A stretch of DNA of 64,000 bases from Mycoplasmatota bacterium (GTDB lineage: Bacteria; Bacillota_I; Bacilli_A; Izemoplasmatales; Hujiaoplasmataceae): the NCBI GenBank assembly GCA_027859085.1, contig JAQIBJ010000102.1, forward strand, positions 37,366-101,365. The letters are read 5' to 3'. The translations under genes were made by a program, and so were the position numbers. Of the stretch, positions 5,100 through 29,854 are shown piece by piece. Numbering within the stretch: the stretch's first letter is position 1; every line of letters starts with the position of its first letter. The notes beneath the pieces are model-generated. The model had not been told where the DNA came from. It saw nothing but the letters and a program-made list of their open reading frames with translations, and did not search any database.

Positions 5100-6515
5100 A
5101 TGAAAAAAGTATTTTTAATGTTGTTTTTAATTGTGTTTGGAATGGTGGGTTGTAATGGTCAAGAGACTGAAGCAACAACCACAGAAGTAGTTTATGAGAA
5201 TTATGTATCAATTGTTATTGGTGATGATACACATTCTCTAGGTTTTAATCATCAGGATGATACATTATTTGATTTAATTCAATCATCTAATATCAATCTT
5301 GATTTTGAGGACACTGAATATGGTCCTATGGTCTCTGAAATTGGTGAATACCAACAAGATGAGTTTCATTGGATTAGTTTTACAAAGAACTCAGAATACG
5401 CTGAATCAGGATTAGATTCAATAGAATACCAAGATGGAGATGTTTTTCAATTCTTAGAAAACATGTCAACATGGGATCAAACATTTACAGCTGAACTTAA
5501 TTCTATTGATGGAGATTTATTATCATTCGAAATTGGAAATTATGAGGTTTTAATTAACAAAACCACCTTAAATAGTGAAGAATTTTATGTCGGTGGAAAT
5601 TATACAATGACTGGTCAACCGTCATCGATAACCAATAACGAAGTTATATTTACAGTGAGTGATTTTACCGCTAATTTTGAACACATTAGTATAATTATTG
5701 GTGATAACACATATGATTTGTTATATGAAGTAGGAACAGATAAATCTGCATTTGAACTCATCGATGATTCTGATATTGAATTAGAATATATAACAACTCA
5801 ATATGGTCCAATGATTACTAGAATTGGAGATTTACAACAAGATGATTTCCATTGGTTAAGTTTTATGGTTAATGATGAATTCGCTAGTTCAGGATTAGAT
5901 ACTTTAGAGTATCATGATGGTGATGTTATTACGTTCACTGAAGAAATAGCAACTTGGGAAGTTAACGTAAAAGCTGAAATTATTGAAATCAATCAAGATG
6001 AGATTATATTCCAAAATGAAAACCAAGCCTTTATTGTTGAAGTGATTGATTTACCAGAAACAGTAGTTGTTGGTGATTTAGTTGTTGGTTTTTTATATAA
6101 TTTAACTGGTTTAGTTGATGCAGAAGCATCAAATGAAATAATTAATTTCATTCCTTCATCTCTAGAATTGAATGTTGTTACTGATTTTACTAGCTTATAT
6201 GAATTAGAAGTGGGCGATGTAGTTATATTGCAATTTACAGTCACTTATATAGAAGATAGTTCAGAGTTTGGTATTGAAATATATGCGGAAGATATTAATG
6301 GTTTATCAAGTACAGAAATATCAAGTAGTATGAGTTATTCAAGTGCAACAAATTATATCTTTTACACCATTCCTAGTGATTATGATTTAGTTGTTAATCA
6401 AACATATATAGGTCGGTTTATATATCAAATAAATGAACCGAGTCAAATACCACAAATCACACTTTATGAACAAAGCATCAATGGAGAAGAAATCGATAGT
6501 GTTATTGTAGAATAG
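5100..6515 (+). CDS. Lipoprotein with two DUF4430 (transcobalamin-C-like) domains plus C-terminal domain
   Basis: Lipobox GMVGC; internal repeat VSIVIGDDTHSL..TEYGPMVSEIGEYQQDEFHWISF..SGLDSIEYQDGDV and ISIIIGDNTYDL..TQYGPMITRIGDLQQDDFHWLSF..SGLDTLEYHDGDV; downstream of B12 riboswitch. Confidence 0.8.
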   Translation: MKKVFLMLFLIVFGMVGCNGQETEATTTEVVYENYVSIVIGDDTHSLGFNHQDDTLFDLIQSSNINLDFEDTEYGPMVSEIGEYQQDEFHWISFTKNSEYAESGLDSIEYQDGDVFQFLENMSTWDQTFTAELNSIDGDLLSFEIGNYEVLINKTTLNSEEFYVGGNYTMTGQPSSITNNEVIFTVSDFTANFEHISIIIGDNTYDLLYEVGTDKSAFELIDDSDIELEYITTQYGPMITRIGDLQQDDFHWLSFMVNDEFASSGLDTLEYHDGDVITFTEEIATWEVNVKAEIIEINQDEIIFQNENQAFIVEVIDLPETVVVGDLVVGFLYNLTGLVDAEASNEIINFIPSSLELNVVTDFTSLYELEVGDVVILQFTVTYIEDSSEFGIEIYAEDINGLSSTEISSSMSYSSATNYIFYTIPSDYDLVVNQTYIGRFIYQINEPSQIPQITLYEQSINGEEIDSVIVE

Positions 6516-15948: not shown

Positions 15949-15977
15949 AAAGCACCTTTTTTTAAGGGTGCTTTATT
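15949..15977 (+). terminator. Intrinsic terminator
   Basis: AAAGCACC...GGTGCTTT followed by T-rich tract. Confidence 0.7.
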
Positions 15978-16071
15978 ATTATATATTATTATTATACTTT
16001 TATACTTTACATTTCATAAGATATTATATATAATAAACTTATAAGTCTAAACTTACTAGTTGGAGGTATGC

Positions 16072-17376
16072 ATGAATAAAGATAAAACGCAATTGCTCAC
16101 AGAAAATAAAAATTTGTTTGAAGAATCCATTAATGAATTTAGCGCCAAACCTTATGATATGGCTTCTGTGAACGAAATTATAAAAAGAAGTCAATACAAC
16201 AAAGGTAGTTTTTACTATCGTTTTAAAGATAAAAATGAGTTGTATATATCTTTATTAGATTATGTCTTTGTTCAACAGGTTGACTTGTTTAAAAAGTCAG
16301 GTTTTTCATTATTAACAAGTAATAATCCTAGAGAAGTACTTGTTTCTCTTTTCCAAAACTTGATAGATTTGTATCACTTTGATAAAAGGTATTATAATAT
16401 AGTAAGACTACTATATAACGAAGAGGATGATTTCATTCTTCAAACATTAGGTGATTCAGTTGGGTCATTATATGAAAGATTTAAGCTTAAACTTAAAAAA
16501 ATGACTGAAGTTAACGATTCTCAAATGATAATTATTGAATCTTTATATAAAAATCTTCCTGTTCTTAGTATAATTAATAGTAAGATCACAATTCAATCTA
16601 TTGTTGACCAAGTCATCAATGGTTCTAAAAACATGGCATCTGAACAAGAAACTGACAATTCTGACTTAATCACATTGATTGAAAAAAGTATTGAAGAACG
16701 TTTTAATTATATTGTTTTAGATGAAAAATATGATGATTTTGATAAGCGATGGTTTGATATCATCAAAGTTTCTCAAAATATTAAATTTTTGAAAAACAGA
16801 CTTAAATTTAAAATTTTTAGACTTAAATTAAATATAAAATCAATTTTAAACCGTTACAAGCATAAGCCTATATTTAATTATTTAGCTATTGAAAATTTGT
16901 TAAAATCAGACCTATACCCTAAAATAGTCAAAGATAAAGTATTATCAAACATAACTTATGGCCTAATTTATGCTATTATAGATTTAAGAGAATATATTCT
17001 TATCAATCAATCTTTAAAGTTTTTAAATGAAGAACAACGTGATATTTTATTTAACTACATATTGCCACTTAATGGAAAATTATCAAAAATAATCTTTATG
17101 GACCAATCAATCATTCTTAACAACAATAATATTGCATATTTCTATTATTATAACGAGTTTAGTGGTATTAAAAAATTACATGTAGATGGATTTAAAGATA
17201 AATACTATTTAAAAATTCATTGTCATTATAAGATTAACGATCAATTCTATCATGTTTATTACAATTCATTTCAATCGTTCTTGAGATTTTATCAGGACAA
17301 TGAAATTAATATAATTAAATTAGAAAGCACCCATGAATTACATTTAGGTGATTTAAGAGAGGTCGTGGAAGATTAA
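16072..17376 (+). CDS. TetR-type regulator fused to a C-terminal degenerate ABC-ATPase-like region
   Basis: Start refined to ATG 16072 (GGAGGT). N-term HTH: MASVNEIIKRSQYNKGSFYYRFKDKNELYISLLDYV. C-term: KVSQN..VLSNITYGLIYAIIDLREYILINQSLKFLNEEQRDILFNYI resembling Q-loop/signature/Walker B/D-loop spacing. Confidence 0.65.
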   Translation: MNKDKTQLLTENKNLFEESINEFSAKPYDMASVNEIIKRSQYNKGSFYYRFKDKNELYISLLDYVFVQQVDLFKKSGFSLLTSNNPREVLVSLFQNLIDLYHFDKRYYNIVRLLYNEEDDFILQTLGDSVGSLYERFKLKLKKMTEVNDSQMIIIESLYKNLPVLSIINSKITIQSIVDQVINGSKNMASEQETDNSDLITLIEKSIEERFNYIVLDEKYDDFDKRWFDIIKVSQNIKFLKNRLKFKIFRLKLNIKSILNRYKHKPIFNYLAIENLLKSDLYPKIVKDKVLSNITYGLIYAIIDLREYILINQSLKFLNEEQRDILFNYILPLNGKLSKIIFMDQSIILNNNNIAYFYYYNEFSGIKKLHVDGFKDKYYLKIHCHYKINDQFYHVYYNSFQSFLRFYQDNEINIIKLESTHELHLGDLREVVED

Positions 17377-18098
17377 TGAAAAAGATTATTGATACAGTGA
17401 AAAATGATTTTGTTAATTATAGAGATTATCATTTCCTTGAAATAATGTTTATTTTAACCTTGTTTTTCGGATTGTTAATGGGGTTAACAAGTTTAATGCC
17501 ACCGATTATCTATATTTACTTGTCGGTATTTGTTTTACCAGTAATCACTTTTTCTGTAAGTTTATTTATTGAAGCTCAACAAAAGACTGTATTACCTAAT
17601 GTTTTAGATGATAATCATCATCCTAGTTTATACGCCATAGGGAAAATTTTATCAGCAACACTAATTCAAATTATTCCTATGATATTTTATTTAATGGTTA
17701 TGATATTTGTTTTAGGTTTAAGTTTTAATATATTATTCTTTATGATTGTCTATATGCTATCAACTGTCATCCATATTATCATTGGTTTGTCTTTGTCAAT
17801 CATTGCAAAAACAGCTTATACATTATCTTTATCATATTTAGTCTACTTAATAGTTTTTTCAGTAATTCCAATATTATATTCATTTGATTTTTTTAGCGCT
17901 GATTTAAGTTATATATTAATTATTTCTCCAGCGTTTTTATCAGGTGTCTTATTTGAATCGCTTGTCAATCAGTATTCAATGATGGACCCATGGTTCAATT
18001 ATATTTCTTTAGGGTTAATTCTCACATACATAGTTGTACTGTTTATGTATGTTATTAAGCCCTTTATTGTTCACTACTTAAAAGAAAATTATGAATAA
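17376..18098 (+). CDS. ABC-2 type permease-like membrane protein
   Basis: Six hydrophobic segments, 240 aa; abuts the TetR/ABC-like gene. Confidence 0.65.
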   Translation: MKKIIDTVKNDFVNYRDYHFLEIMFILTLFFGLLMGLTSLMPPIIYIYLSVFVLPVITFSVSLFIEAQQKTVLPNVLDDNHHPSLYAIGKILSATLIQIIPMIFYLMVMIFVLGLSFNILFFMIVYMLSTVIHIIIGLSLSIIAKTAYTLSLSYLVYLIVFSVIPILYSFDFFSADLSYILIISPAFLSGVLFESLVNQYSMMDPWFNYISLGLILTYIVVLFMYVIKPFIVHYLKENYE

Positions 18099-18101
18099 AG
18101 T

Positions 18102-18132
18102 AAAAGCAACTCTATTTTTGAGAGTTGCTTTT
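18102..18132. terminator. Bidirectional intrinsic terminator
   Basis: AAAAGCAACTCT-ATTTTTG-AGAGTTGCTTTT. Confidence 0.85.
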
Positions 18133-19122: not shown

Positions 19123-22100
19123 ATGGGCATTGAGAATATTGATTTTGCTTTGTATTTAAATATTTCGTTTTTTTCAGTATTGGCGATTGGTTTACTGTTT
19201 GGTTTATTAAAAGGATTTAGGAGATCACTATATACTTTTATTATTACCGTTATATTTATTGGTATATTCTTTTTAACGGTTAATCCTATTGTTACTTATC
19301 TATACAACCTTGAATTAAATTTCATTGGTGGGCTAGCAAGTAATGTATCTGGTGGTTTAAGTCAAGCAACAAGCGTCCAAGAAGCTGCAAGATTGTTTTT
19401 ATTTGAGCAATTTGGGGAAAACTTAGATACCAGTCAAACAAATCCAGAATTTTTAGCATTTGCAGATGCAATGGGTATGTTTGTTTTAAAAATCGTATAT
19501 ACTATCTTGTATTTTTCAATAATACAAGTTATTTATCGTTTAATTTTATTTATTGCTAGTTTATTTATTTTTAGAAAAGGAAGAAGTAAAAATAAAAAAG
19601 GAAAACGTGGCCGAGCTTTAGGCGGTGTTTTTGGTACATTAACAGCTGCAGTGAATGTCTTTGTAATGATTATAATGCTTAGTGGAATCATCAGTATTAG
19701 TGAGAGTTTGGTTTCTTTACAGGGAGAACCATTGGCTTATCAGATAGATCTAGACAGAAATACTAAACCTAACATTACAAGAATTGATCAATCACTCACG
19801 AAAATAGGAAAACTTAACCCTCAGCAAATGGCTGAAACAAATACTGCGTTAGATGATGCGATGGCATCATTAGAGACAATTATTACTGAATATAATAATA
19901 ATATCATTATTCAAGGGGTAAATGCTTTTCAAGTGGAAGACGAAGTAACAGGCGAAAATAAGAACTTAGCAATTATCTTGTTTGATGAGGTATTATCTAT
20001 TAATTATGAAAATGAGAGTATTGCATTAAGACAAGATTTGAGAACATTTACAGAAATTGCTGGAATATATTTAAACTCAGATTTTTATAATTCGAATGAT
20101 TTAGCTGATTTAAAGAGTCAAGAAGTTAATGATATGTTCTTGAAACTATCACAATCAAAATTAATCACAACCATTATACCAATTGGTATTGAAGTCGGTA
20201 TGGATTATATGGATGTTGATTTTGAATTAGAAAAAGAATTACTTTATGAAGATATTAATTGGCAAGAAGAGCTTGCACAACTTGGTGTTGTTGCTTCAAC
20301 AGGATTCATGATATTAGAAAATGCAGATGCATTTGATCCAGACACCGATTATAAAACCATTAGTTTAGATGGACAAGAAGTAGATGATTTGTTTACAGAA
20401 CTGTCTAACTCCAAACTAGTTGAATACGGAGCATATATCGCCATAGAACCTCTTTTAGAGGGCGCAACCCAGACTGTTCAGTCAGTTATCACAGTCCCAG
20501 AGGACATCGATTGGAAAGATGAATTCCAAGCATTCGGTATGATTGCGAATGAAATCTTATCAACTGGTTTAACAGTCGCTGATCTTGAAGGTGAAAATCA
20601 ACAAGATTTGTTGTTGTTATTCACAGAAGTTGATTTAACAGTTTTATTGAATTCTCAATTAACTTCAAACGCTTTGATTAATATATTTTCTGGAGAAGCT
20701 GAGATTGGATTTAATATCGAATTCTTAGTGATACCAAATGCGGATGATATTCAGTGGAATGATACAATTAATGAACTCACTGGAGAAGTGGCTCTCGCTG
20801 GAGAACTAAGAAATATTCTTACCAGTCTAAACATATTGGTCCAACAATTAGATAATATCGATATTGATAATCTTCAAATACAAGATTTATCAGGTATAAC
20901 TGACGATGAAATAGATCAAATGTTTGAATCTGTTATATTGGTTGCTTCGATTAGTCAGCTAATAACTGACTTAGATACTGGAGATTTTAACTTAGTGATT
21001 CCAGATCGTGTTTTAGATGAAAATCAATACATCATAAAAGAAGAAGTGACTAATATTTTTAAAGCATTAACTATGGCCTCAAGAGAAATACCTTGTGATG
21101 AAGGTAATACTGCTTGTGCTGATATAGGGTTCGATATGGATAAAGTGACTCAATTATCAACTGCGAACGTAGATACTCTGTTTTCTTCAGATATATTATA
21201 TGCAACTACTGCTTCAATGTTAACTGAGTTTGAAGAACTTATTATTCCTGAAGATATTAAGGAAGACTTACTAGTTGATTCTCAAATAGTAAGTTTACCA
21301 TCAAAAGAAGAAATTAAAAAAACATTCTCTGCAATTACTGCATTAGGCATTACTGATTTTCAAAATATTTCAATGAGCGGAGATTTATTGTTGAATTTAT
21401 CAGTTGATTCTGAGACTGATCCAACGACACTTGATACAACAAAAACAGATAAAATATTTGCTTCGGCAATATTACATGCAACTATATCATATTTTATACT
21501 TCAAGAAATAGATGTTACTCCTCCGGAAACATCGCCTTTAATCATCCCTTATTTTGCAGCTGAAAATTATGAAGGTACAACCTCTAATATTGTAAGATAT
21601 TATGATACTGCTGGAGAAGTAGATTATATTAGTTCTGAAGAATTAACTAATATAATTGCTGCAATATTAGTTTTAGATATTACGGATTTCAGTACATTTG
21701 ATACCATTGACATTAATACAATTATTTCTAATTCAGAAGTTATTCTTGATTCTGCTATTTTGCATGCAACATTTTCTGATCAAATTATGAATTTAAATGG
21801 ATCTGGTTTAGTCATTCCAAGTAAAGATGAATTAGATAATGATATAGTTATCATTTCCGGAGATATATTAGAAGAACAAACTACATATATTATTAAGTCC
21901 GAGTTAATTGCTACTTTAGATTCATTGGAAGTTCTTGAGATTACAGACTTTAATAACCCAACAATAGATGTTTCTGTATTAAACAAATTGGCTAAAGATT
22001 CTGCACCAACTGAACTAGATGAGGATAAAACAGCGTTACTATTTTCTTCGAAGATATTACATGCAACTATTACTGATTTCATTCTACAAGAAGCAGATGG

Positions 22101-25100
22101 TACTGCAACCGCTAGTTTAGTATTGCCTTATTATGCTTCAGAAAACTATGAATCAACAACCTCAAATGTTGTAAGAATTACCAATAGTTTAGATGAGGAA
22201 TACATTTCGATCAATGAACTTAACGCTTTAATAGCAGCGTTCTTGGTTTTAGATATAACTGATTTTACTGAAGTTGAAGCTTTAGATTTTACTAAAATCA
22301 CATCTAATTCAACTCTCATTTTAAAATCTGCTATATTACATGCAACAATTTCAAAACAAATGTTGGATTTAAATACAAGTGAAAGTTTAGTTATACCTAG
22401 TTTAGATGACCTTAATCAGCCTTTGAGAGTTACAACAGGTATTTTACCTGAAGAACAAACTGAATATATTATTAAAGATGAAATAACAGCGACATTAGAT
22501 GCACTTGATATTTTAGGAATCACTGATTTTAATAATGTGAACATAGATGCAAGTGTATTAACCAATTTAGCTGATGATACCGATTCAACACTCTTAGATA
22601 CTAATAAATCTGATACTTTATTGTCATCAAAGATTGCTCATGCAACTTTATCAAAAGTAATTTTGGATGCAGCTGCGCCTGATGAAATCACTGGTGAAAC
22701 TGATATTATAGTACCTTTTGTTGCAACAGAGAACTATGCAACTGGTAATGGTAATGTAAGGTTTGTGACTACAGATGATGATATTTATATCATAAAAGAA
22801 GAGTTAACCAATTTATTTAGAGCAATATTAATTTTAGATATAACTGATTTTACTCAAGTAAGCGGATTGCAACTATCAACAATCGCTACACATAAGGATA
22901 TTGTTTTAGATTCTGCTATATTACATGCAACAATTTCAGATCAAGTTATTGAATTAGGTAATTCTGAGAATTTAGTATTACCAGAACTTGATTTAAATAA
23001 TGATCCAATTTTAGTGACTAAAGGTGATGTTTTAATAGAAGAAACAGATTATATCATTAAAGATGAATTGAAGAATACTTTAGATGCTTTAGATATTTTA
23101 GATATCACAGACTTTAATAATGTCACCATTAATGCATCTATTTTACAAAAACTAGCCGATGATACCGATTCTACTTTACTTGATCCTACAAAATCAGCTA
23201 CGTTGTTATCATCAAAAATTGCTCATGCAACCATTTCTAAAGTTATTTTAGACGCTGCAGAAGCAGACCCAATTACTGGTGATACTAATCTAGTTGTTCC
23301 ATATTATGCAACAGGGAACTATACAGGAACATCAAGTGATGTCGTAAGATTTACAACAACGGCTTTGGATTACTACATAACTGAGTTAGAACTTACTGAA
23401 TTATTTGAAGCTATTTTAGTATTAGACATAGATGATTTTAATCAAGTTGAGGGATTATTATTATCTGATATTATTGATAATTCTACAACATTATTAGAAT
23501 CTGCAGTATTACATGCAACGATTTCAAAACAAGTTATTGAATTAAATGAAATGAGTTCAGATATATTAATACCTGAAACTAATGAACTTGGTAATTCAAT
23601 AATATTAGAGGATACATTAGGTGAAGGTGCAGAATTTATTACTAAAGTTGAATTAGAAGCAACTTTTTCAGCGATGGATTTATTGGGAATGACAGATATT
23701 GATTCTTTCGATGGAAACATTAGTTTAAGTCTTTTCTTTAAATCAAGTTATCCAATAGAGTATGCTGATAATCAAGATACATTACTTGCTTCATCAATTA
23801 TGCAAGCAACTATTTCGGATAAATTAGCAAATTTAGAAACATCTAATATGTTAATTATTCCTGGAGTTGATGATTTAAATCAACCTATAGAAGCTACTTA
23901 TGGTACTGATTATTTTGTACTTAAAACAGAAATCAAATCATTAATCAATGTTTTAGACATATTAGGTGTTAGTGATATTGAAACATTCGACGGAGCCATT
24001 AATTTAGGGTTATTCTTTGAATCAACTAACCCAACGACTTATCAAGACAATCAAGACACATTACTTGCGTCTTCAAGTATGCAAGCTACTATTTCAGATA
24101 AACTAGCTGACTTAGAATTAGGCGGTCAACTAATTATTCCGGCTGTAAATGTTTTAAGCCAAGCCGTAGAAGTCACTCATAATACTGACTATTTCATTTA
24201 TGATGATGATATTAAAGCTTTGATTAATGTCATGGATTTATTTGGAGTCACTGATATTGATTCATTTGATGGTGGTATTGATTTAGGTTTATTCTTTGAA
24301 TCAACAAATCCAACAACATATCAAAACAACCAAGACTTATTGATGGATTCATCAATTATGCATGTGACTTTGTCATCTAAATTGAGCAATTTAGAAACAT
24401 CTGGAGAATTAATTATCCCATCTGTTGATGTATTAAATCAAGCAGTTGAAGTGACAAATGGTGCTGATTATTATGTTTATGCATCAGAAATTAAATCATT
24501 AATCAATGCTATGGATGTTTTTGGAGTCACTGATATTGACACATTTAATGGAGAGATTTCAATAAGTAATTTCTCTTCAGAAACAAACCAAGATATATTA
24601 CTTGCTTCAGCCATTATGCATATGACTGTTTCAGATCAAATTCTGAGTAATACTACAACGACAGTTCCTGAAAAATCACTTGAAAGTAACTTAACAAACA
24701 TTGATATTCGCATTATTCAAAGTGGTAATGAATTTATATTGGGTGATGAGATTAAAGCATTGATCAATGTGATGAACTTAATTAGTACAGGTAACATCGA
24801 TCAATTTAGTGGAGAGATCACACTCAGCTTATTCGATGGCGATACAAACCCTGCAAATCAAGCAACATTATTGAGTTCAGCAATCATGCATGCAACTGTA
24901 TCTAAGCAAGTACTTGATTTAGATACTGCAAATACATTGGTTGCCCCAGAAGAAGATATTGATTCAGCGATTATAAGAAAAATTGTTATTGGTACTTATA
25001 TCAATACCGAATACTTAGTTAAATCAGAAATTGCTGCATTGATTGATGGTCTAAATGCAATGGGCTTAGGTAGCCAAAGCATTAGTTCATTTGCTGGTAC

Positions 25101-26622
25101 TATCGGTATTAGTGCTTTATCAACTGAAACTGTACAAAATGAAGTTCTTGCATCTGCGACATTACATGCAACCATTTCAAAACAAGTTATTGATTTAGAC
25201 ACTTCAAACACACTGGTTGCACCTAATAAAACTTTAGATGCATTAGACAATGAAATATTTATCAGATTAACAACAGGTAGTACTTTTACAACTGAATTTT
25301 TAATTAAAGATGAAGTAAAAGCTTTAATTGATGGTTTAAATATCTTAGGATTAGGTGGACAAAACATTAGTGACTTCGATGGTAATTTAAGCATTTCAAC
25401 ATTAGACACTAATCAAAAACAAACTGATGTGTTAGCTTCTGCAGTCTTGCATGCGACCTTCTCTGATAATCTAATTGTTATGGATGATCAAATATTATTT
25501 GTACCTAGCTATAGTGAATTAGGAGAAATACAAGCATATCGCATTAAATACATTGTTGACACCACTGATTTTATGATTAAAGACGAAATTAAAGCAATTA
25601 TTAATGCATTTACTGCTATGGGTTATTTAAGTCTTGATGATGTTGATTCAAGTTTTACATTAGATACATTCTTTGATAATCCTAATATTGTATTAGCGTC
25701 TTCATCAATACAAGCAACAGTATCAAATAAATTATTAAATGATACTGGAGGATCGTTAATCATTCCAGACGATGATATTAATGAAAATCCGGATAAAGTC
25801 ATTCGAATTGTACAAACAGATGTGACTTACATTGAATTAGTCGAATTAAAAGCTTTAATTGCTGGATTAGAGTCATTAGGCTTAACTAACTTTACTGGCA
25901 TGACATTTACACCGGCGAATATATTTGCTGCTGACTTTAACATTGTATTAACATCAGCTTCACTACAAGCCACTATTTCAGATACAATTCTAGCTGGTGC
26001 TGTAGATGAAAACAATATTACAAGTAGTAGTGATTTAATTATTCCTACATACTTTAGAGAAACAATTACTGTTGATTCAGTGAGTGCTACTCATATTGAA
26101 AAAACTGAGTTAAATAATCTATTAACTGGTTTAGAAGAATTAGGAGTTACATCATTTAGTGGTGGTGTAGACCCAACAATTGTAACTGGATTATCATCAA
26201 CTCAATTGAATACTATTTTAAATAGTGGTTCACTACATGTAACTATTGATAACATGTTACAAGCAAATGCTACTCTTACAATTCCAACATTTGTCTTAGT
26301 TGATTTATATAACATTGTTGGTTTGATAGAAAAAACTGAAATCGTTAACTTCATCGCATCAATAAATGCACTTGGTGAAACAGATGTTACAAATGCATCA
26401 TTCGATTTCGCAACAATTGCAGGATTAACACCTACTGAACAAAATATTGTATTAGAGTCAGCGATTGTTAGAGCAACCATTACACCTGATGTAGAGACAG
26501 CTAAAACAACTGGTGATATGTTAAATCCTTTAAATCCTTACACTGGTACTTGGGCATACGAAACCGATGGAACAACACTTACAAAACCTAGTATCCAAGG
26601 TTTTATTAATCACGTTTACTAA
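19123..26622 (+). CDS. Giant CvpA-like membrane protein with long tandem-repeat extracytoplasmic region
   Basis: N-term LFGLLKGFRRSLYTFIITVIFIGIFFL and further TMs (CvpA-like); then ~20 repeats around [SA]-x-[IL]-[LM]-[HQ]-AT-[IV]-S ... L-[VI]-[IV]-P ... [YF]-[IV]-[IK]-x-[ED]-[EL]-[IL] ... [IV]-[TS]-D-[FI]. Confidence 0.85.
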   Translation: MGIENIDFALYLNISFFSVLAIGLLFGLLKGFRRSLYTFIITVIFIGIFFLTVNPIVTYLYNLELNFIGGLASNVSGGLSQATSVQEAARLFLFEQFGENLDTSQTNPEFLAFADAMGMFVLKIVYTILYFSIIQVIYRLILFIASLFIFRKGRSKNKKGKRGRALGGVFGTLTAAVNVFVMIIMLSGIISISESLVSLQGEPLAYQIDLDRNTKPNITRIDQSLTKIGKLNPQQMAETNTALDDAMASLETIITEYNNNIIIQGVNAFQVEDEVTGENKNLAIILFDEVLSINYENESIALRQDLRTFTEIAGIYLNSDFYNSNDLADLKSQEVNDMFLKLSQSKLITTIIPIGIEVGMDYMDVDFELEKELLYEDINWQEELAQLGVVASTGFMILENADAFDPDTDYKTISLDGQEVDDLFTELSNSKLVEYGAYIAIEPLLEGATQTVQSVITVPEDIDWKDEFQAFGMIANEILSTGLTVADLEGENQQDLLLLFTEVDLTVLLNSQLTSNALINIFSGEAEIGFNIEFLVIPNADDIQWNDTINELTGEVALAGELRNILTSLNILVQQLDNIDIDNLQIQDLSGITDDEIDQMFESVILVASISQLITDLDTGDFNLVIPDRVLDENQYIIKEEVTNIFKALTMASREIPCDEGNTACADIGFDMDKVTQLSTANVDTLFSSDILYATTASMLTEFEELIIPEDIKEDLLVDSQIVSLPSKEEIKKTFSAITALGITDFQNISMSGDLLLNLSVDSETDPTTLDTTKTDKIFASAILHATISYFILQEIDVTPPETSPLIIPYFAAENYEGTTSNIVRYYDTAGEVDYISSEELTNIIAAILVLDITDFSTFDTIDINTIISNSEVILDSAILHATFSDQIMNLNGSGLVIPSKDELDNDIVIISGDILEEQTTYIIKSELIATLDSLEVLEITDFNNPTIDVSVLNKLAKDSAPTELDEDKTALLFSSKILHATITDFILQEADGTATASLVLPYYASENYESTTSNVVRITNSLDEEYISINELNALIAAFLVLDITDFTEVEALDFTKITSNSTLILKSAILHATISKQMLDLNTSESLVIPSLDDLNQPLRVTTGILPEEQTEYIIKDEITATLDALDILGITDFNNVNIDASVLTNLADDTDSTLLDTNKSDTLLSSKIAHATLSKVILDAAAPDEITGETDIIVPFVATENYATGNGNVRFVTTDDDIYIIKEELTNLFRAILILDITDFTQVSGLQLSTIATHKDIVLDSAILHATISDQVIELGNSENLVLPELDLNNDPILVTKGDVLIEETDYIIKDELKNTLDALDILDITDFNNVTINASILQKLADDTDSTLLDPTKSATLLSSKIAHATISKVILDAAEADPITGDTNLVVPYYATGNYTGTSSDVVRFTTTALDYYITELELTELFEAILVLDIDDFNQVEGLLLSDIIDNSTTLLESAVLHATISKQVIELNEMSSDILIPETNELGNSIILEDTLGEGAEFITKVELEATFSAMDLLGMTDIDSFDGNISLSLFFKSSYPIEYADNQDTLLASSIMQATISDKLANLETSNMLIIPGVDDLNQPIEATYGTDYFVLKTEIKSLINVLDILGVSDIETFDGAINLGLFFESTNPTTYQDNQDTLLASSSMQATISDKLADLELGGQLIIPAVNVLSQAVEVTHNTDYFIYDDDIKALINVMDLFGVTDIDSFDGGIDLGLFFESTNPTTYQNNQDLLMDSSIMHVTLSSKLSNLETSGELIIPSVDVLNQAVEVTNGADYYVYASEIKSLINAMDVFGVTDIDTFNGEISISNFSSETNQDILLASAIMHMTVSDQILSNTTTTVPEKSLESNLTNIDIRIIQSGNEFILGDEIKALINVMNLISTGNIDQFSGEITLSLFDGDTNPANQATLLSSAIMHATVSKQVLDLDTANTLVAPEEDIDSAIIRKIVIGTYINTEYLVKSEIAALIDGLNAMGLGSQSISSFAGTIGISALSTETVQNEVLASATLHATISKQVIDLDTSNTLVAPNKTLDALDNEIFIRLTTGSTFTTEFLIKDEVKALIDGLNILGLGGQNISDFDGNLSISTLDTNQKQTDVLASAVLHATFSDNLIVMDDQILFVPSYSELGEIQAYRIKYIVDTTDFMIKDEIKAIINAFTAMGYLSLDDVDSSFTLDTFFDNPNIVLASSSIQATVSNKLLNDTGGSLIIPDDDINENPDKVIRIVQTDVTYIELVELKALIAGLESLGLTNFTGMTFTPANIFAADFNIVLTSASLQATISDTILAGAVDENNITSSSDLIIPTYFRETITVDSVSATHIEKTELNNLLTGLEELGVTSFSGGVDPTIVTGLSSTQLNTILNSGSLHVTIDNMLQANATLTIPTFVLVDLYNIVGLIEKTEIVNFIASINALGETDVTNASFDFATIAGLTPTEQNIVLESAIVRATITPDVETAKTTGDMLNPLNPYTGTWAYETDGTTLTKPSIQGFINHVY
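21472..26520 (+). repeat. Degenerate in-frame tandem repeats (unit about 234-303 nt; about 580-nt two-unit higher-order repeat in the 5' part)
   Basis: HATIS-box positions 21472, 21760, 22057, 22336, 22636, 22921, 23221, 23509, 23800, 24079, 24358, 24616, 24886, 25162, 25447, 25708, 25963, 26233, 26467. Confidence 0.85.
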
Positions 26623-26743: not shown

Positions 26744-29700
26744 ATGATTCTAAATATTATGGCTTCAATTGATTTGTTATTTTATTTTATATTAGGTATC
26801 GCCATCTTCTTTGGCTTTTTAAGAGGTTTTAAAAAATCTTTATTTACATTTGTTGTGATGGCTATTTTCTATATTTTATTCTTTGTCACCTTAAACGCGG
26901 CTGTCAATATGATTTGGTCGATGAATTTAAGTTTCTTAGGTGGCATGTTTGGAAACATTGATCCAGGTTTATCTTCATTCCAATCATTTGAAAGTGATTA
27001 CCAATTAATTATTCAAACATTTTTTAATAATAGTTTTGATTTTACTCAACCCGAAATGGATTTATTGGCTGTTGGAATCATGCAATTTGCTGTTAAAATA
27101 ATATGGGCAATTGTCTATTTTACTGTTATATTATTACTATACAAAATAATTACTGGTATCATTCGTATGATATTTATTAAAGCTGGTAAACCTAAAAAAA
27201 GACTTTTCGGGTCTATCGTTGGTGGTTTGAACGGTGCAATGGCAGTGTTTGTTACCTTAATTGTATTGGGGGGAACGGTATCATTTATTGAAAGTGTTAC
27301 AATTTTAATGGATAATGAACCTGAACAACTTGCTAATAACTTAGTATATGAGCCTAGGACGACGATACTAGAGTTAAATCAATCTATCATTCCTGAAGAT
27401 AATGTTATTGAATTGGCTGAAACAGATCCTGTTGTTGATCCAGCTATGGTTGATACCATGAATGAATTGGTTGATAATTATCATAAGAATATCATTGTTA
27501 AACTCGCAAATACCATTAAAGTAGATTCTACTTTTAATGCAACTGAAAAAGTGCCTCTTCATATTGATTTATTTGATAGAGTCTTATCATTTAAATATGG
27601 AGATGATGAAATAGCATTAAGACATGAAATATCAATCTTTATGAACGCATATAATGTTATACAAGCCTCTGAATATGGTAATACTCAGAAAATAACTGAT
27701 ATTAAAGGTGAAGATATACGAGAAGCATTTACATATTTAGAATCATCTATATTATTGCCAACAGCTTTACCAATTGGTATTAAATATTACAGTAATCAAA
27801 ATGATATTAATTTATCAGTAACTGATGATGAGTTATTCAATTACAATTACACAACTGAAATTGAAAGATTGTCGAATATTCTAGCTGGTGTTTTTGATAT
27901 ATTAAATGAACAAGAAACATCAATCGATGAAGACGGTAATGAAGTAGTTATAGATGGTGCTTGGGTAAGAGATGTCTTTACAGATGTATCTGAATCTCGT
28001 GTTGTCTTATTGGCCACTGAATCAATATTGGTCCCAATGATAGAAGAAGGTAATGGTGAATCAGAGATTTTACAAATCATTGCACTTCCTAATCAAATAT
28101 CTTGGGAAGATGAATATGTAGCAATCGGTAATATCTTAGCAGAAATGATTGACGCTGGGATTTCTATACAAGACATTGAATCAACTGATTTAAACACTGT
28201 CTTAGAAACCTTCGCAAGTATTGATGCAAGTGTTATCGTCGGGTCAAAACTGATTTCTGAAGGGTTAATCAATATATTAAGCGGAGAAACATCTTTAGAA
28301 GGTTTAGATGCTTTAACCGTTCCACAAGATATTACATGGAGAAGTACTGATACTGAAACAGGTGAATTAGAATATGTATTGGTTGCTATACAAGCATTAA
28401 TAAATGAAATGGATAACTTAGATTTTGATAATGTTGATATTGATTTATTAACAGGACTTGATGACGAAACAATCGTTGCACTATTGGATTCATATATTAT
28501 TAGAGCGACCATGTCTGATCAAATTAATACGTTTGAACTTGGAACTTATCAGTTAGTAATACCTGATAATACAATTGATTCACAAGGTTATTATATAAAA
28601 GCAGAATTAGACGCTTTGGTTGAAAGTATCCAGTTATTAGCTGATGTAGATGGTTTTAGTATAGATACATTGTATACATTAACTGATAGTGATCTAGATA
28701 TTTTATTTGCATCTAGCATCATTCAAGCAACTGTTTCAGATATTGTTTTGGATCAAGCAGCATTATCAGCTGGAGCAACGGCAACATTAATCGTTCCAGC
28801 GTCTGTTAGAGAAAATATTGTTGTGAATACACAAACAATTGAACAAATTGAGTTGGATGAATTAAAAGCGATGATCAATGCCTTAAATACTTTAAATATC
28901 ACGGATCTTGATGGTGGTATTGATTCATCAATTATTACATCTGTTTCATCTAGTGATATAAATACCATCATTGAAAGTGAATCATTACATGCGACAATTT
29001 CAAATCTAATCGATACATTTGAATTAGGTGTTTATCAGTTAGTGATTCCTGACAATACAAAGGATTCACAAGGTTATTATACAGGAACTGAATTAGTTGC
29101 TATAATTGAAGGTATACAATTGTTGTCAGATGTTGATAACTTTAGTATTGAAATCTTGTATACATTAAGTAATAATAATTTAGATACATTATTTACTTCA
29201 AATATCATTCAAGCAACCATCTCAGATATTATTTTAGATCAAGCTACCTTGACGACAACCACACCACCGACATTAACCGTTCCAGGTACTTTAAGAGAAA
29301 ACATCGTTGTCGATACACTAACCATGGAACAAATTGAATTGGCAGAATTAAAAGCGATTATCACTGCTTTGAACACATTAGGTACAAGTAACTTTGATGG
29401 TGGTATTAATCCATTAGACATCACTTCATTGTCAACAGGTGACTTAACTACTATTTTAAATAGTGGCTCATTACATGCAACCATTGATGGTATGTTACAA
29501 GATAATAGTGCATTAATTAAACCTGATTTCATATTAAGTGATTTATATGGTTTCACTGATGTTGTTCAAAAAGCTGCTATCATAAACTTTATTGAAGCAG
29601 CACAAGAATTGGGTGAAACTGATATTAGTAGTGCTAGTTTAAACTTTGCTACAATTGCTACTTTAACAGCTTCTGAGCAAGCAACAATTCTTGAATCAGC

Positions 29701-29854
29701 AATTGTTAGAGCAACCATTACACCAGATGTTGAAACAGTTGTCACCAATGCTGCACTCATTGATCCTTATACAGGTACTTGGAATTATGAAACAGTTGGA
29801 AACGTTACTTTAACACAAGCAAGTATTCAAGGTGTTATTGATCAATATTATTAA
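26744..29854 (+). CDS. Second CvpA-like tandem-repeat membrane protein (paralogue of the 2499-aa protein)
   Basis: FFGFLRGFKKSLFTFVVMAIFYILFFVTLNAAV; six HATIS-type boxes; C-terminus ESAIVRATITPDVET..DPYTGTWNYETVGNVTLTQASIQGVIDQYY matches the first protein. Confidence 0.85.
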   Translation: MILNIMASIDLLFYFILGIAIFFGFLRGFKKSLFTFVVMAIFYILFFVTLNAAVNMIWSMNLSFLGGMFGNIDPGLSSFQSFESDYQLIIQTFFNNSFDFTQPEMDLLAVGIMQFAVKIIWAIVYFTVILLLYKIITGIIRMIFIKAGKPKKRLFGSIVGGLNGAMAVFVTLIVLGGTVSFIESVTILMDNEPEQLANNLVYEPRTTILELNQSIIPEDNVIELAETDPVVDPAMVDTMNELVDNYHKNIIVKLANTIKVDSTFNATEKVPLHIDLFDRVLSFKYGDDEIALRHEISIFMNAYNVIQASEYGNTQKITDIKGEDIREAFTYLESSILLPTALPIGIKYYSNQNDINLSVTDDELFNYNYTTEIERLSNILAGVFDILNEQETSIDEDGNEVVIDGAWVRDVFTDVSESRVVLLATESILVPMIEEGNGESEILQIIALPNQISWEDEYVAIGNILAEMIDAGISIQDIESTDLNTVLETFASIDASVIVGSKLISEGLINILSGETSLEGLDALTVPQDITWRSTDTETGELEYVLVAIQALINEMDNLDFDNVDIDLLTGLDDETIVALLDSYIIRATMSDQINTFELGTYQLVIPDNTIDSQGYYIKAELDALVESIQLLADVDGFSIDTLYTLTDSDLDILFASSIIQATVSDIVLDQAALSAGATATLIVPASVRENIVVNTQTIEQIELDELKAMINALNTLNITDLDGGIDSSIITSVSSSDINTIIESESLHATISNLIDTFELGVYQLVIPDNTKDSQGYYTGTELVAIIEGIQLLSDVDNFSIEILYTLSNNNLDTLFTSNIIQATISDIILDQATLTTTTPPTLTVPGTLRENIVVDTLTMEQIELAELKAIITALNTLGTSNFDGGINPLDITSLSTGDLTTILNSGSLHATIDGMLQDNSALIKPDFILSDLYGFTDVVQKAAIINFIEAAQELGETDISSASLNFATIATLTASEQATILESAIVRATITPDVETVVTNAALIDPYTGTWNYETVGNVTLTQASIQGVIDQYY

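Follow-up and report, generated by a model that had tools for sequence, protein, structure and literature searches.

A gene at positions 16072-17376 (forward strand) of the window, by which we mean the whole 64,000-nucleotide stretch of Mycoplasmatota DNA that was analyzed, encodes a protein of 434 amino acids in which a TetR-type regulator continues, in one reading frame, into a domain with the marks of a disabled ABC-type ATPase. The explanation that we favor, at slightly better than even odds, is that the repressor of an exporter operon was fused here in frame to the exporter ATPase, and that the ATPase then lost its activity and now belongs to a repressor that regulates its own gene. For a TetR-ABC fusion no described case was found in the open-access literature. 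Among the best 60 PDB matches to the family profile there was no chain covering both parts; the C-terminal part was matched by ATPases, and the N-terminal part by TetR proteins. The fusion occurs in a family of bacteria that have no cell wall.

A TetR regulator and an ABC-type domain in one frame

The TetR part (residues 1-187, positions 16072-16632, forward strand) consists of a helix-turn-helix segment (residues 1-65) and a TetR-type C-terminal domain (residues 66-187). Pfam TetR_N (PF00440) matched residues 19-59 of the window protein with an E-value of 1.2e-9 (38.2 bits, cut-off 24), which bears out the original prediction of a TetR-like N-terminal region of about 190 residues; the peptides quoted in that prediction were all found in the 434-residue ORF. 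Proteins of the TetR family usually have about 190-230 residues with one ligand domain, a length that is typical rather than strictly defining and that the window protein exceeds, and the nine other TetR_N genes of the window's genome have frames of 187-228 residues. Genome searches recovered full-length fusions from the four other genomes of the window's genus and from across the family f1. When the genome contigs were searched with the single protein, only L001 was found. Twenty-five family members were aligned, 22 of them full length, and in these 22 fusions the residues N43, G45, S46, F47, Y48, Y49 and R50 are invariant. Profile searches of the order and phylum gave no fusion outside f1 at the thresholds used.

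The window protein by itself matched no ABC model in Pfam or NCBIfam. Pfam ABC_tran (PF00005) was matched by 6 of the 22 full-length fusions, in the same ORF as TetR_N and with a best E-value of 3.9e-24. Comparison of the P-loop-bearing fusions with intact ATPases by hhalign gave a probability of 100 (E 1.2e-44). A pooled set of 13 P-loop-less sequences, from the window's genus and two other genera, in turn matched the P-loop-bearing fusions over a stretch comprising the signature, Walker B, the H-loop and the C-terminal extension, with a probability of 93 (E 2.4e-7). The score of this pooled set was 55.1, as against at most 17.0 for 16 unrelated protein families taken from the same loci and at most 20.5 for 100 column shuffles. 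With the five domains of the window's genus alone the match to the P-loop-bearing fusions was weak but in register (probability 16, E 0.0016), and the score of 30.4 compares with at most 18.0 for the unrelated families and 23.4 for the shuffles. Direct comparison of the P-loop-less domains with four intact nucleotide-binding domains (NBDs) was not significant (hhalign probability 0.12 for the genus and 0.16 for the pooled set), so that homology is shown via the P-loop-bearing intermediates. Descent of the window's C-terminal region from an ABC nucleotide-binding domain is supported by these profiles. The predicted combination of a TetR regulator with an ABC ATPase is likewise upheld, both by this profile link and by same-locus homologues, beside the same permease, that carry ABC_tran in the TetR_N ORF. 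The operator, the permease partner and the series of family members described below go beyond that prediction. AlphaFold2 models of the whole protein and of residues 198-434, made with a two-sequence alignment, had pLDDT values of 39 and 45, too poor to use; a Foldseek search with the poor model of residues 198-434 gave no match at E ≤ 0.001.

Loss of the catalytic motifs

The order of ABC motifs in the C-terminal region goes beyond chance. In alignment with intact NBDs, LSNIT coincides with the signature, YILINQS with Walker B, FLN with the D-loop and IIFMDQ with the strand of the H-loop, each as claimed from the sequence at the outset. Two other assignments called for correction: the stretch thought to follow Walker A ends in NYIVLDEKYDDFDKRW, which coincides with Walker A, and the alignment lends no support to IIKVSQNIKFL as a Q-loop. 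At the eroded Walker A position (16705-16752), aligned to IVAIIGPVGSGKSTLFKL of the family member L023 and to the P-loops of intact NBDs, the P-loop is absent. The degenerate signature, the helix after it, Walker B (YILINQ, with D replaced by N and E by Q) and the D-loop occupy positions 16942-17028 according to hhalign and the multiple alignment. They are followed by the clade-specific motif ILPLNGKLSKII with the H-loop strand, which lacks the His (17059-17118), and by a C-terminal extension that aligns with the NBD type of the intact operons (17206-17373); all these features lie on the forward strand. In the window's clade the NBD has lost about 50 residues of its N-terminal half.

The term dead ATPase thus fits the window protein as far as its motifs go, with Walker A, signature, catalytic Glu and H-loop His all absent or replaced. 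In the alignment the catalytic Glu is missing from 21 of the 22 full-length fusions, and its sole holder, L020, is without a P-loop. Neither the signature glycine nor the H-loop His occurs at its aligned column in any of the 22; L017 and L025 have an adjacent His. The P-loop is kept by some family members, for instance as GPVGSGKST. From these motifs the ATPase half is predicted to hydrolyze ATP no longer, and that of the window's clade probably does not bind ATP.

If the C-terminal region were a functionless relic in decay, the stepwise loss of motifs across the family and the missing residues in the window's clade would be expected. We regard this as most improbable. In a comparison of the window with zrk2 (a cultured Mycoplasmatota bacterium strain, CP076020, 74% identical to the window), in which synonymous sites are near saturation and pN/pS serves only for comparison between genes, the dead domain had a pN/pS of 0.25, the helix-turn-helix 0.12, the rest of TetR 0.25 and the permease 0.24, with 0.15 for thyA and 0.34 for dfrA as reference genes. 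Within the genus the segment from Walker B to the H-loop is better conserved than the TetR C-terminal domain (0.53 versus 0.41), and the full-length members stay open frames with no internal stops. The dead domain is, on these measures, under purifying selection.

Operon, operator and origin of the fusion

The ORF of the fusion starts with the ATG at 16072, which is preceded by GGAGG. It overlaps by one base with a gene for an ABC-2-type permease-like membrane protein of 240 amino acids (17376-18098, forward strand), and the fusion gene is the first of a two-gene operon. Upstream, a terminator scan located an intrinsic terminator at 15949-15974 (forward strand), between a YcxB-like gene and the operon; it is a match to the consensus alone, with 11 pairs and then a T-rich tail. 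A bidirectional terminator-like hairpin, also by consensus match alone, lies at the end of the operon (18102-18132). The putative promoter is of the sigma-70 type, TTTACA-17-TATAAT (16006-16034, forward strand), with 11 of 12 positions matching, and most relatives have a -10-like TATAAT at the equivalent place ahead of the operator.

The putative TetR operator, the tandem palindrome ACTTATAAGT-CTAA-ACTTACTAGT, begins two bases past the -10 box (16037-16060, forward strand). Each of the 25 family promoters examined has its consensus, ACYnnnnRGT-nTAn-ACYnnnnRGT, ahead of the fusion gene, exactly in 23 and with one mismatch in two. The window's genome has one exact match to the full tandem pattern; weaker or single-palindrome sites may occur elsewhere in it, and the match is therefore not put forward as the sole target. 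Across 61 genomes searched the full pattern was confined to genomes with the fusion and occurred in no relative without it. As to additional operator matches, the coordinates place the site in G001 within an ORF; a second exact one in G010 (L098, about 5467-5490) lies upstream of an ORF of 952 amino acids and is either a target or a chance match. Autorepression is suggested by the presence of a TetR protein together with a conserved site over its own promoter start, and binding to DNA and repression by the fusion protein are, on this sequence evidence, likely.

Among 395 genomes of the class, 16 had the pattern in a longer form; 12 of these belong to f1 and four to the family f20. In f20 the operator precedes a TetR-ATPase-permease operon whose ATPase is intact (G227, L135), and it also precedes ATPase-permease operons with intact ATPases (G450, G475 and G476; L138-L140). 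At L140 two overlapping operator matches suggest three consecutive palindromes. The other TetR-ATPase operons examined (L003, L136) have a different site, TGACAAGGTTGTCA. The occurrence of the same operator before unfused operons of f20, with another site in L003 and L136, is in our view a sign that it descends from an exporter operon whose genes were still unfused.

Outside f1, three matches spanning both domains (G227, G035 and G045) proved to be separate TetR and ATPase genes, in which the ATPase follows in frame directly after the TetR stop; loss of the stop would therefore yield a fusion. The three P-loop-less genera cluster on a tree of TetR and permease with an ultrafast bootstrap of 99, the deeper nodes being poorly supported. 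Judged from the sequences, the P-loop was lost at a later step than the catalytic Glu, in the clade that contains the window. The stages can be read as a series, from an unfused operon with an intact ATPase, via a fusion with a P-loop and no catalytic Glu, to the P-loop-less fusion, with loss of the fusion and retention of the permease at the end. Along it an enzyme subunit would have turned into part of a transcription factor. Since the operator is recognizable at every stage that has the regulator, these evolutionary steps are testable. The series suggests a simple way in which a regulator can become coupled to the very target it controls, by loss of one stop codon between the regulator and the next gene.

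The permease and the proposed function

In the mechanism that we propose, a TetR-type repressor would have been joined in one frame to an ATPase subunit, encoded in an ABC-2 exporter operon of the kind that the repressor regulated. The fusion would bind at 16037-16060, just past the -10 box of the promoter from which it is itself transcribed, and repress the two-gene operon, that is, itself and the permease-like protein. The dead ATPase half would be retained for its structural role in the repressor; it may pair two subunits and dock on the permease, and the membrane protein, through its amount or its state, might then pull the repressor off the DNA, following the MalK/MalT logic in a single chain. 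Docking and release, which are proposed by analogy, we consider the likeliest role of the dead domain, though at somewhat less than an even chance. More tentative still is the wider idea that an ABC exporter was turned into a membrane-linked switch, whose surviving permease would be the sensor and would control the repressor via the dead ATPase domain.

The permease shares ancestry with the first of the permeases encoded in the intact operons, and its match to Pfam ABC2_membrane (E 2.8e-4, 20.9 bits) falls under the cut-off of 26.9. Its coupling-helix motif ExxExTL is found in none of the five sequences of the window's genus, where the coupling-helix region is its least conserved part, and this argues against a classical NBD-permease contact there. 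The motif is kept in the genus g8, of which three genomes (L088, L089, L090) have YcxB and the permease adjacent and the fusion gene missing. The permease of g8 thus points to a role independent of the fusion; a permease that does not need the fusion counts against docking.

Both the loss of the coupling-helix motif in the window's genus and the retention of the permease in g8 would fit another explanation, in which the dead ATPase serves the repressor as a soluble domain for sensing or pairing, with the permease no more than regulated cargo. The motif ILPxxxKxSKI, present in 12 of the 13 full-length P-loop-less members and in no P-loop-bearing member, is consistent with a new binding surface of such a domain. 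Permease orthologues adjoin the fusion throughout the family, which speaks for a connection between the two proteins, although shared operon ancestry explains the adjacency too. We judge this explanation somewhat unlikely, and it is the main rival of docking. Quite unlikely, in our estimate, is that the system is still a transporter, with the fusion binding ATP without hydrolysis or another ATPase of the cell driving the permease. The P-loop of some family members and an intact ATPase of this type elsewhere in the window's genome (G000:C22) would allow for it; against it stand the lost P-loop of the window's clade, the decayed coupling-helix motif of the genus and the lack, beside the fusion, of the second permease that the ancestral-type operon has.

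The conserved gene order around the fusion is thyA, dfrA, an acyltransferase-like gene, PAP2, YcxB, fusion and permease, with PAP2 absent from the neighborhood in the window's genus. In most other genera GH36 and GH2 glycosidase genes, which the window's genus is without, come next after the permease, and then a trypsin-like gene on the opposite strand. The glycosidase genes often follow the permease with little or no gap (L091-L093, L099-L102, L104-L106) and may belong to the regulated operon. Two very long ORFs of the window (19123-26622, 2499 amino acids, with many similar repeated stretches, and 26744-29854, 1036 amino acids) fall into a single similarity cluster, to which long ORFs at the corresponding place in relatives also belong.

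With respect to known systems, the C-terminal domain of the fusions is homologous to ABC_tran, which six family fusions still match. It departs from ABC_tran in the missing catalytic Glu (21 of 22), the lost signature and H-loop and, in the window's clade, the lost P-loop. The ybiH-ybhGFSR operon of E. coli is a TetR-regulated ABC-2 exporter operon with genes for TetR, ATPase and two permeases (PMC7190983). The unfused operons L135, L136 and L137 have this same layout, with a TetR-family regulator beside the ATPase and permeases of an ABC exporter. The window differs in having repressor and dead ATPase in one chain with one permease, and in that the sole exact full operator of its genome is at the fusion's own promoter. 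In the maltose transporter of E. coli the ABC ATPase MalK holds the transcription factor MalT at the membrane (PMC10427625). Unlike the fusion, MalK is an active, separate ATPase and MalT is a STAND activator, and for the fusion docking on the permease is suggested by analogy. What the two systems share is an ABC ATPase subunit physically tied to a transcription factor, an arrangement by which a membrane transporter can control transcription.
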